Shown here in pieces: positions 42,639-45,901 of a DNA stretch of 48,518 nucleotides. This DNA is from Sphaerochaetaceae bacterium. GTDB taxonomy: Bacteria; Spirochaetota; Spirochaetia; Sphaerochaetales; Sphaerochaetaceae. The stretch's first letter is position 1. Each line of letters begins with the position of its first letter. The notes beneath the pieces were generated by a model. It saw only the letters and a list, made by a program, of their open reading frames with translations, was not told the origin of the DNA and did no database searches. The stretch is taken from assembly GCA_028532915.1 (NCBI GenBank), contig JAQQAI010000012.1, forward strand, positions 1-48,518, given 5' to 3'. The translations under genes were made by a program, and so were the position numbers.

Positions 42639-43292
42639 ATGGTATCAATCCCGACAATCAAACGTTTTCCCTCGTACTTGAGACTGCTGAGACAATACAA
42701 AGAGGATGGACAGATCTGGATTTCCGCGACAAAACTCGCTGCTGATCTGGATCTTACAGCTATTCAGGTCAGAAAGGATATGGCCGGTACCGGCGTTGAA
42801 GGAAAACCTAAAGTGGGGTTCGAGATCAACGCACTCATCGCGGCGATCACGAAGAACCTCGGGTGGGATAACACGACAGATGCCGTTCTCATCGGTGCAG
42901 GACACCTTGGTGTCGCGCTTTCACGCTATGACGGGTTTGCCACCTATGGGCTGAGAATCGTTGCAGCATTCGAGAAGGATCCGAACAAGGTAGGACTTCC
43001 GATCGGCAGGACTTTCGTTCTCCCCATGGAAGATCTTAAAAACTATATCAGAGAGCATTCCATCAATATTGCAGTCATTACGGTACCTGCGGAATCGGCA
43101 CAGGATGTGGCCGATCAGCTCGTCGATGCCGGAATTAAGGGAATCTGGAATTTTGCTCCCAAGGATCTTAAGCTTCCTCCCCATATCGTCATTCAGCGGA
43201 CAGACCTTGCAACGAGCTTCGCTGTCCTCTCCGCCAAATGCAGACGCCATTTTCAGGAAGACTCGGAGGATAGGGCGGATGAGATCGATTGA
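42639..43292 (+). CDS. rex: Redox-sensing transcriptional repressor Rex
   Basis: Rex binds DNA when NADH/NAD+ is low and leaves it when NADH builds up, switching on fermentation and NADH-recycling genes. The 217-aa protein has an N-terminal winged helix with LDLTAIQVRKDMAGTG, a Rossmann motif GAGHLGVALSRYDGF (about residues 87-101, canonical GxGxLG), and NFAPKDLKLPPHI with the C-terminal domain-swap helix. No clear Rex box was found near other genes in the window. It sits in an operon with the oxygen-sensitive IspH and a methionine-repair enzyme, and it overlaps the next gene by 14 bases. Confidence 0.94.
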   Translation: MVSIPTIKRFPSYLRLLRQYKEDGQIWISATKLAADLDLTAIQVRKDMAGTGVEGKPKVGFEINALIAAITKNLGWDNTTDAVLIGAGHLGVALSRYDGFATYGLRIVAAFEKDPNKVGLPIGRTFVLPMEDLKNYIREHSINIAVITVPAESAQDVADQLVDAGIKGIWNFAPKDLKLPPHIVIQRTDLATSFAVLSAKCRRHFQEDSEDRADEID

Positions 43293-43833
43293 AGACAATG
43301 AGAGTTATGAAATTCTGCTGGAGCAGGTAAGAGGACTGTGTTCGGACGATAAACAGTCATTCTTTTCTCTCAACGGTGCACTGGCCAATGTGAGTACTCT
43401 TCTTCGTCATTCTCTTGAAGCCTTGAACTGGGTCGGTTTCTACTTTAGAAACAAAAGCGGAGATCTATTGCTGGGGCCTTTCAGCGGAGAGGTCGCATGC
43501 GGGTGTCTACCGGCCGGAAAGGGTGTGTGTCAGAAGGCACTAAGCGATAAAGATGTGGTGAATGTACCCGATGTGAACGACTTTCCTTCCCATATCGCCT
43601 GTGATTCAAAGAGCAGAAGCGAACTTGTCGTTCCGCTGTTTGCATCAGATGAGGTCGTGGCTGTCCTTGACATTGACAGTTCACAGTATGACCATTTCGA
43701 CCGCAACCTTACCAGTCTGTTCAGAAAGACCGGAGAAATCATCTCCGGCAGGTTCGGGTTGATTCCGAATTATCTTGACATTATCAGAATAAATTCACAC
43801 TATATCGGTAGTAGCGATGAAAGAGACGAGTAA
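43279..43833 (+). CDS. msrC: Free methionine (R)-sulfoxide reductase (GAF domain)
   Basis: The enzyme repairs oxidised free methionine. The 184-aa GAF protein has NWVGFYF (about residues 50-56), LLLGPFSGEVACGC, GKGVCQKAL, HIACDSKSRSELVVPL and VAVLDIDSS, the fRMsr pattern, and the three cysteines of the family (in VAC, GVC and IAC) are present. ATG at 43279 has GGAGGA 8 bases upstream and overlaps the rex end. Last gene of the ispH operon; the likely thrS promoter starts within its 3' end. Confidence 0.92.
   Translation: MRSIEDNESYEILLEQVRGLCSDDKQSFFSLNGALANVSTLLRHSLEALNWVGFYFRNKSGDLLLGPFSGEVACGCLPAGKGVCQKALSDKDVVNVPDVNDFPSHIACDSKSRSELVVPLFASDEVVAVLDIDSSQYDHFDRNLTSLFRKTGEIISGRFGLIPNYLDIIRINSHYIGSSDERDE
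43775..43803 (+). promoter_or_regulatory. Possible promoter of the thrS leader
   Basis: TTGACA (43775-43780) and CACTAT (43798-43803) are 17 bases apart and lie inside the 3' end of the sulfoxide reductase gene. Transcription would begin near 43810, just ahead of the T-box leader. The -35 is perfect, the -10 partial. Confidence 0.42.
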
Positions 43834-44120
43834 CCAGATGTTCTGTATTTTAGAGAGGATGTCCCTGAATCTTTCGATTCTCGGGTGGGAGACATCTATT
43901 ACTGCTTTGGTGAAAACCCCTCTGGAGCTGTAGGGCGAACGTATCACTACCAGTAGTCTTACCGTTTTTCCTGACGTACAGGATCAAATTGAGTGCCTAT
44001 CACCTTGGTGGTAGGAAGTAAGGTGGAACCGCGGAAACATGACCCTTCATGTTCTCGTCCTTACCAGAGCCATAGTAATGTGGTTAAGGAGGAAGAGAAG
44101 ATGAAGGGTTTTCTTTTTCC
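43830..44120 (+). promoter_or_regulatory. T-box riboswitch (tRNA-Thr sensing) controlling thrS
   Basis: The T-box motif AAGGTGGAACCGCG lies at 44020-44033. Before it come a Stem I region (43834-43925, with an AGAGAGG/CCTCT base and a GATGTC/GACATC arm), a CCTG/CAGG hairpin (43970-43982) and Stem III (43996-44015). The antiterminator pairs AAGG (44020-44023) with CCTT (44059-44062) and AACATG with CATGTT. The competing terminator pairs CCCTTCAT (44043-44050) with ATGAAGGG (44101-44108), continues as TTCTC/GAGAA and TCC/GGA pairs, and ends in TTTTCTTTTT (44109-44118). Thr codons ACT (43901) and ACC (43916) lie on the 3' side of Stem I; I cannot tell which is the specifier. Uncharged tRNA-Thr would favour readthrough into thrS. 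Confidence 0.9.
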
Positions 44121-44152
44121 GATGAGATGGAAACTGTAGAAGGAGATTTTAA

Positions 44153-45901
44153 ATGGCTAATAAACAACCAGTTGATGAAAAATTGGCAAAGATCAGACAC
44201 TCGATGTCACACGTGATGGCAGAAGCTGTCCTGCAGATGTTCCCGGACGCACAGATAGCGATCGGTCCTGCGATAGAGAACGGTTTCTATTATGATTTCG
44301 ATCTTCCAAGAACATTGACAAGTGATGACCTCGAAGAGATCACACAGCGGATGAAAGATATCATCAAAGAAGACAAAGAGTTCAAGAGAATCGTGGTAAG
44401 CAGAGACGAGGCGAAGAAGATGTTTGCCGGTCAGACCTATAAGATGGAGCTCATCGATGCCATCGAAGAGGATCAGGAAGTATCGATCTATAATCAGGGA
44501 GGATTCACAGATCTCTGTAAAGGGCCTCATGTCGGTTCGACAAAGGAGCTTAATCCCGGGGCTTTCAAGCTGCTTTCGATTGCGGGTGCATACTGGAGAG
44601 GAAAAGAGACAAATCCCATGCTTACCAGAATCTATGCGACAGCGTGGAACAATCCGAAGGAACTGCGTCTCTATCTGACAAAACTCGAAGAGATCGAGAA
44701 ACGGGACCACAGAAAACTCGGAAAAGAGCTCGATCTGTTCAGTTTCCATGAAGAAGCGGGTCCCGGACTGGTATACTGGCACCCCCGCGGGGCCAGAATC
44801 AAGCTGGCAATAGAGAATTTCTGGAAAGATCAGCATTACAAGAACGGATATGAGATGGTCAGTACACCTCACGTCGGTAAATCTTGGTTATGGGAAACCA
44901 GCGGGCACCTCGATTTCTATAAGGAGAGCATGTACTCCCCCATGGAGATGGATAAGGCCGATTATTATGCGAAACCGATGAACTGTCCTTTTCATATCAT
45001 GATCTATCAAAACGGTAAGCACTCCTATAAAGATCTTCCGTTCAGATGGGCTGAACTCGGGACCGTCTACCGCTATGAGAAGGCGGGAGCTCTTCATGGT
45101 CTGATGCGGGTCAGAGGCTTTACTCAGGATGATGCACATCTTATCTGTACTCCCGATCAGATGGAAGAGGAAATCAAGGAAGTCCTCAGATTCTCTCTGT
45201 TCATGCTGCGATCCTTCGGATTCACCGAAATCGCGGCATACCTGTCCACCAAGCCTGCCAAGAGTGTCGGCGGACAGGAACAGTGGGATGCGGCGACTCA
45301 GTCTCTCCGTACAGCTATCGAAAATGAAGGTCTGCAGTATGATATCGATGAAGGCGGCGGAGCCTTCTACGGACCGAAGATCGATCTGAAGGTGAAAGAT
45401 GCTCTCGGAAGAGAATGGCAGCTTTCCACAGTCCAGTTCGATTTCAATCTGCCTGAAAGATTCGATATGGTCTTCGTGGACTCCGACGGAGTTGAAAAAC
45501 GGCCGTATATGATACACAGAGCCCTTCTCGGTTCTATCGAACGGTTCTTCGGAGTTCTTGTCGAACATTTCGGCGGAGCCTTCCCTCTGTGGCTTGCTCC
45601 CGAACAGGTTTGCGTGATTCCTGTCGCGAAACATTTTAACGGCTACGGTGAACAGGTAATGCAGAAACTGAAGGAAAAAGGATTCAGGGTTTATATCGAC
45701 GACAGTGACGACAGGATGAATGCGAAGATAAGAAAGGCTCAGAAGATGAAAGTCCCCCATATGCTTATTCTTGGAGAACAGGAAGAGGCTCAAGGTGCGA
45801 TCTCTGTCCGCTACAGGACCGGGAAGCAGGAGAATGGGATTGCGTTCGACACCTATGTGGAAATGCTTGCTGACCGTATCGAAAAACACGAGATGGTGTA
45901 A
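44153..45901 (+). CDS. thrS: Threonyl-tRNA synthetase lacking the TGS domain
   Basis: The enzyme charges tRNA-Thr and edits mischarged serine. The 582-aa protein begins almost directly with the editing domain (HSMSHVMAEAV, residues 16-26; TDLCKGPHVG), so the N-terminal TGS domain of about 60 residues found in 640-aa relatives is missing. The class II catalytic core follows, with MNCPFHIMIY (zinc Cys), RVRGFTQDDAHL (motif 2 and zinc His), MIHRALLGSIERFFG (zinc His and motif 3), then the anticodon-binding domain (about 480-582). AGAAGGAG lies 7 bases before the ATG. It is controlled by the T-box and leads an operon with the carboxypeptidase and the phosphatidyltransferase. Confidence 0.96.
   Translation: MANKQPVDEKLAKIRHSMSHVMAEAVLQMFPDAQIAIGPAIENGFYYDFDLPRTLTSDDLEEITQRMKDIIKEDKEFKRIVVSRDEAKKMFAGQTYKMELIDAIEEDQEVSIYNQGGFTDLCKGPHVGSTKELNPGAFKLLSIAGAYWRGKETNPMLTRIYATAWNNPKELRLYLTKLEEIEKRDHRKLGKELDLFSFHEEAGPGLVYWHPRGARIKLAIENFWKDQHYKNGYEMVSTPHVGKSWLWETSGHLDFYKESMYSPMEMDKADYYAKPMNCPFHIMIYQNGKHSYKDLPFRWAELGTVYRYEKAGALHGLMRVRGFTQDDAHLICTPDQMEEEIKEVLRFSLFMLRSFGFTEIAAYLSTKPAKSVGGQEQWDAATQSLRTAIENEGLQYDIDEGGGAFYGPKIDLKVKDALGREWQLSTVQFDFNLPERFDMVFVDSDGVEKRPYMIHRALLGSIERFFGVLVEHFGGAFPLWLAPEQVCVIPVAKHFNGYGEQVMQKLKEKGFRVYIDDSDDRMNAKIRKAQKMKVPHMLILGEQEEAQGAISVRYRTGKQENGIAFDTYVEMLADRIEKHEMV

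Follow-up and report, generated by a model that had tools for sequence, protein, structure and literature searches.

Does a spirochaete control a threonyl-tRNA synthetase gene through a T-box riboswitch and, if so, from where did the leader come? The question is raised by a 48,518-nucleotide contig of a Sphaerochaetaceae bacterium (hereafter the window), in which a sequence-only reading had recognized such a leader upstream of thrS. Published surveys place T-boxes elsewhere: none was counted in six spirochaete genomes in 2008 (PMC2494555), and the hosts listed in 2013 were Firmicutes, Actinobacteria, Chloroflexi, Deinococcus-Thermus, and Geobacter (PMC3766115). A 2023 Borrelia paper gives the TPP riboswitch as the only riboswitch characterized in spirochaetes (PMC10319736). 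We found no report of a spirochaete T-box in the open-access literature; an earlier listing in the species tables of TBDB or Rfam is possible. The feature thus belongs to a known RNA family whose host phylum here is absent from the published open-access surveys. Our analysis leaves little doubt that it is a canonical, threonine-specific T-box riboswitch of the transcription attenuation type, probably an old trait of spirochaetes and not a recent clostridial import.

A full-length T-box precedes thrS

A covariance-model search with the Rfam T-box family, the check that the sequence-only reading had proposed, matched RF00230 at positions 43808-44065 of the + strand, on which all features described here lie. 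The match spans the full length of the model (1-219; E 4.6e-20), and its score of 96.5 bits is only just above the family gathering cut-off of 93. It is the sole gathering-level Rfam match within the window and the single T-box match in the whole genome (2.64 Mb, 97% complete). Together with the leaders of relatives and the covariation described below, this full-length match upholds the claim of a complete T-box riboswitch before thrS in a spirochaete.

The gene itself (44153-45901) encodes a threonyl-tRNA synthetase (ThrRS) of 582 amino acids with the Pfam domains tRNA_SAD, tRNA-synt_2b, and HGTP_anticodon, and it aligns with the Staphylococcus aureus enzyme 1nyq (E 2.4e-169) from residue 67. 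The window ThrRS is without the N-terminal TGS domain, its alignments starting at residues 65-67 of the E. coli and S. aureus enzymes. The suspected spirochaete host was confirmed as Sphaerochaetaceae by the nearest ThrRS relatives (Sphaerochaetaceae and Spirochaetia metagenome-assembled genomes [MAGs], 84-85% identity) and by the gene order HAD-Rex-GAF-thrS-M32-CDP-alcohol transferase, which is kept in close relatives. Assembly contamination was considered and rejected, as both the gene order and the leader are common to the relatives.

Anatomy and covariation of the leader

The leader promoter (43775-43803) consists of a -35 hexamer TTGACA (43775-43780), a 17-nt spacer, and a -10-like hexamer CACTAT (43798-43803), from which transcription most likely starts near position 43810. 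A generic sigma-70 scan did not list this promoter because its -10 hexamer is weak; in most of the 16 related leaders compared, TTGAC and a hexamer resembling CATTAT/CACTAT are found similarly far upstream of the T-box. The preceding GAF-domain open reading frame (43069-43833) extends at its 3' end across the promoter and into the first bases of Stem I.

Stem I (43814-43928, about 115 nt) was placed by the Rfam alignment, and its helices covary across 24 leaders. It contains the AGUA S-turn (43829-43832), the AG bulge (43852-43856), and the GGUG of the terminal loop (43884-43887). The earlier suggestion of a short Stem I, and hence of a reduced T-box, was therefore rejected: that reading had started the element at 43830, inside Stem I, which cut off the promoter and the 5' strand, and restoring those 16 bases gives a full-length stem. 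The specifier codon ACC (Thr; 43916-43918) lies within GAAAACC and is cognate to the gene downstream; ACC in the context GAA-N-ACC is kept in nearly all spirochaete thrS leaders. Stem II (43930-43962) follows from the Rfam alignment, with 77% of cells paired and two-sided changes in five of its six pairs, and Stem III (43996-44015) is defined by the same alignment and by the covariation test.

The switch region begins with the antiterminator (44018-44064), which holds the 14-base T-box AAGGUGGAACCGCG (44020-44033) and is formed by helix A1 (GUAAGG/CCUUAC), the 7-nt bulge UGGAACC (44024-44030), and helix A2. Folded alone, this segment has a minimum free energy (MFE) of -15.4 kcal/mol and shows exactly the 7-nt bulge UGGAACC; helix A1 is paired in 100% of cells across the 24 leaders and covaries from U-A to C-G. 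The intrinsic terminator (44041-44118) is a hairpin (44041-44110) with a T-rich run (44109-44118) ending in TTTTCTTTTT, and it takes up the 3' strand of the antiterminator, so that the two overlapping structures are mutually exclusive. The hairpin reaches -39.3 kcal/mol (z -8.4), a stability matched by none of 200 shuffles, and terminator equivalents are present in most relatives. All of the parts of this switch that had been paired by hand, namely the 14-base T-box, Stem III, the antiterminator, and the competing terminator with its T-rich run, were thus recovered in sequence and folds. The Shine-Dalgarno AGGAG of thrS (44140-44144) lies beyond the terminator and is largely unpaired in the fold. 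A leader peptide was also considered, as the terminator contains AAGGAGG and an ATG (44101) that opens a 12-codon frame; the pair is not conserved in relatives and arises from pairing with the antiterminator, and this candidate was dropped.

The MFE fold of the entire leader is the terminator state, and Stem I folded freely by itself does not recover its motif; comparative evidence was therefore used for the structure. In an alignment of 24 spirochaete leaders, 86.9% of cells were paired in the stated structure, compared with 73.7% in shuffles and 40-49% with partners slid, a percentage biased by the partial derivation of the structure from the Rfam alignment and the window fold. Two-sided changes, which are much less affected by this bias, occurred in 36 of the 52 pairs, as expected of a conserved structure. 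The covariation score was 0.457 (0.095-0.178 with partners slid), and RNAalifold independently recovered Stem I, Stem III, and the antiterminator.

The tRNA partner and the mode of control

The genome encodes tRNA-Thr with the anticodons GGU, UGU, and CGU, all three with discriminator U. The ACC specifier pairs fully with the GGU anticodon and the UGGA of the bulge with the tRNA UCCA end, so that the variable base A of the T-box stands opposite U73 of the genome's own tRNA-Thr(GGU). U73 was present in all 16 tRNA-Thr(GGU) checked (own genome and 15 further spirochaete genomes), and most of these genomes have A or G as the variable T-box base. Six of them (G030, G248, G306, G352, G387, and G397) have U at this position, giving a U-U mismatch that is either tolerated or indicates a different contact there. 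Strict matching of the variable base to the discriminator across the phylum was accordingly dropped as a rule, since A and G fit U73 and the U of the six genomes does not; the discriminator match seen in the window is not universal in the phylum.

These elements suggest the following course of events. RNA polymerase would start at about 43810 and make the leader. Uncharged tRNA-Thr(GGU) would bind Stem I by its anticodon, at the ACC specifier, and the antiterminator bulge by its free UCCA end, at UGGA, and both contacts would hold the antiterminator, blocking the terminator and allowing thrS to be transcribed. With charged tRNA-Thr, the amino acid would prevent the end contact, the terminator would form, and transcription would stop before thrS. 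Sequence and comparison supply the parts of the leader with their covariation, the matching tRNA, the competing hairpins, and the conservation of these; that the RNA would bind tRNA, sense its charging, and regulate in the stated direction follows by analogy with the known T-box family. Transcription attenuation by uncharged tRNA-Thr is the best-supported reading of these features.

A translational mode of action, in which the leader hides the ribosome-binding site instead of terminating transcription, is very improbable for the window: although four relatives (L094, L096, L097, and L100) have no terminator and hide the ribosome site in the predicted fold, here a -39 kcal/mol hairpin and a T-run precede thrS and the ribosome site lies outside the hairpin, mostly unpaired. 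The features of class II elements (a sequestered ribosome site, absence of a terminator, and a short Stem I) are not found in the window element.

The relatives present a different picture in their own right. Six ACC-specifier thrS T-boxes, comprising the four above together with L127 and L135, are without a terminator or T-run. L094, L096, L097, and L100 have a full Stem I, and in the predicted folds of these four and of L127 nearly all of the ribosome-site GGAGG is paired. These are probably translational T-boxes in spirochaetes.

Distribution across spirochaetes

We examined the occurrence of T-boxes at several levels, and all of the counts below should be read as minima, since many apparent spirochaete copies fall short of the Rfam model's cut-off. 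The model matched 35 of 61 genomes (own and relatives) and 72 of 393 genomes of the phylum, figures that count T-box matches and not thrS leaders, as the gene behind a match was established at inspected loci only. Of the 72, 31 belong to the window's own family, from which 36 genomes were sampled; 40 more are members of the class in different families, and one is not of the class. A motif pattern found 48 of the 393 genomes with few control hits, its own-family hits agreeing with those of the covariance model. Among relatives, 26 of the 29 inspected T-box-core loci stand before thrS.

At named spirochaete thrS loci with upstream sequence, the core motif was present in 56 of 73, for example in Sphaerochaeta halotolerans and Sphaerochaeta sp. 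S2, and absent from 17. Given its place before thrS at this many named loci and its occurrence in about 20 family codes within the class, the leader is probably an old trait of spirochaetes that has undergone losses.

Several loci depart from the common arrangement. Three thrS genes without a T-box (L085, L088, and L090) have a TTGACA-type promoter immediately upstream of the ribosome site, the arrangement that loss of the leader would leave. In another spirochaete family (L002, L111, L112, and L113), T-boxes occur whose specifier is probably UAC (Tyr), the gene after that of L002 resembling a sodium-solute symporter-type transporter. Two own-family genomes (L015 and L019) have a T-box with variable base C, which fits G73, before a TrpX-like ABC transporter substrate-binding protein. 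The main ThrRS is of a different type behind an ACC T-box at L024 and L029 (genomes G025 and G006) and at L006 and L132 (G053 and G397), placed either among proteobacteria or, by a long branch, on the side of the Firmicutes. Here, either the gene was replaced behind the leader or both were acquired together.

Origin of the gene and its leader

A ThrRS phylogeny was built from spirochaetes, Clostridia, Bacilli, Fusobacteria, Bacteroidota, Actinobacteria, cyanobacteria, proteobacteria, and one Chloroflexi sequence. Spirochaete ThrRS formed one clade (support 100/98), which takes in Brachyspira and one Bdellovibrionales MAG; several supported branches lie between this clade and Clostridia and Bacilli. 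The single Chloroflexi sequence (Anaerolineales, L103) is 58% identical to the window ThrRS, stands just outside the spirochaete clade, and has an ACC-specifier T-box, so that the link to Chloroflexi is that of one sequence.

On this tree, at least six changes of T-box state were required among 38 spirochaete rows. We read them as mostly losses because the deep branches have the element with the same specifier. A tentative proposal, to which we give slightly less than even weight, is that T-box control of thrS is ancestral in the class Spirochaetia, that the ThrRS lineage behind it neighbors that of Chloroflexi and not Firmicutes, and that the output switched from termination to ribosome-site hiding at least once with the full Stem I kept.

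Alternatively, the leader alone may be an ancient acquisition by spirochaetes from a different phylum (Firmicutes or Chloroflexi), with later spread or loss inside the class. This is the less likely account, with several observations on its side: the patchy leader, with its repeated changes of state and its 17 core-less loci among 73, the T-box before an Anaerolineales thrS that branches close to the base of the clade, and the two spirochaete lineages whose T-boxes stand on unrelated ThrRS types. However, inheritance with losses agrees with the same position, the same ACC specifier, the similar promoter spacing, and the occurrence of the element in deep branches, and the T-box-less thrS of L085 and L090 keep a TTGACA-type promoter right before the ribosome site, as they would after a loss. 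Joint acquisition of thrS and leader from clostridia is hardly credible: T-boxes are best known from Firmicutes, and several sampled Firmicute thrS also have T-box cores upstream, but forcing the spirochaetes with Clostridia cost 213 log-likelihood units (p-AU 3.7e-37, in the sample used), the window ThrRS is 45-48% identical to clostridial enzymes, no more than to cyanobacterial or actinobacterial enzymes (48-50%), and the leader and gene order are shared across the family. The sequence-only reading had raised such a transfer for the leader and perhaps thrS, had suggested a ThrRS phylogeny with and without clostridial sequences, and had named an ancestral leader on spirochaete thrS as evidence against it; the tree places the window enzyme with spirochaetes, and the leader is indeed widespread on their thrS.

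An ancestral Spirochaetia T-box, if the proposal of inheritance is true, would bear on whether T-boxes spread from Firmicutes or predate them, the two scenarios for their origin being spread from Firmicutes and common ancestry (PMC3766115). With a class-wide T-box in spirochaetes, this question gains a further host group and a testable case, and cultured Sphaerochaeta strains make it accessible to experiment.

Comparison with known T-box systems

The closest known system is the class I (transcriptional) T-box of the Firmicute thrS type, within RF00230. The window element shares its Stem I with AGUA, AG bulge, and terminal-loop motif, its ACC specifier, Stems II and III, the 7-nt bulge containing UGGN, the antiterminator/terminator switch, and the position before thrS. 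It differs from that type in its spirochaete host, in the variable base A against U73 of tRNA-Thr, and in an extra small hairpin in the terminal loop of Stem I, found in the window and some near relatives. The T-boxes of Chloroflexi, Deinococcus-Thermus, and Geobacter (PMC3766115; phylum counts in PMC2494555) likewise occur outside Firmicutes and Actinobacteria. The translational (class II) T-boxes of Actinobacteria sense tRNA through the same elements, whereas in the window element a terminator accompanies a full Stem I; a translational appearance is limited to some of its spirochaete relatives, and those have a long Stem I.
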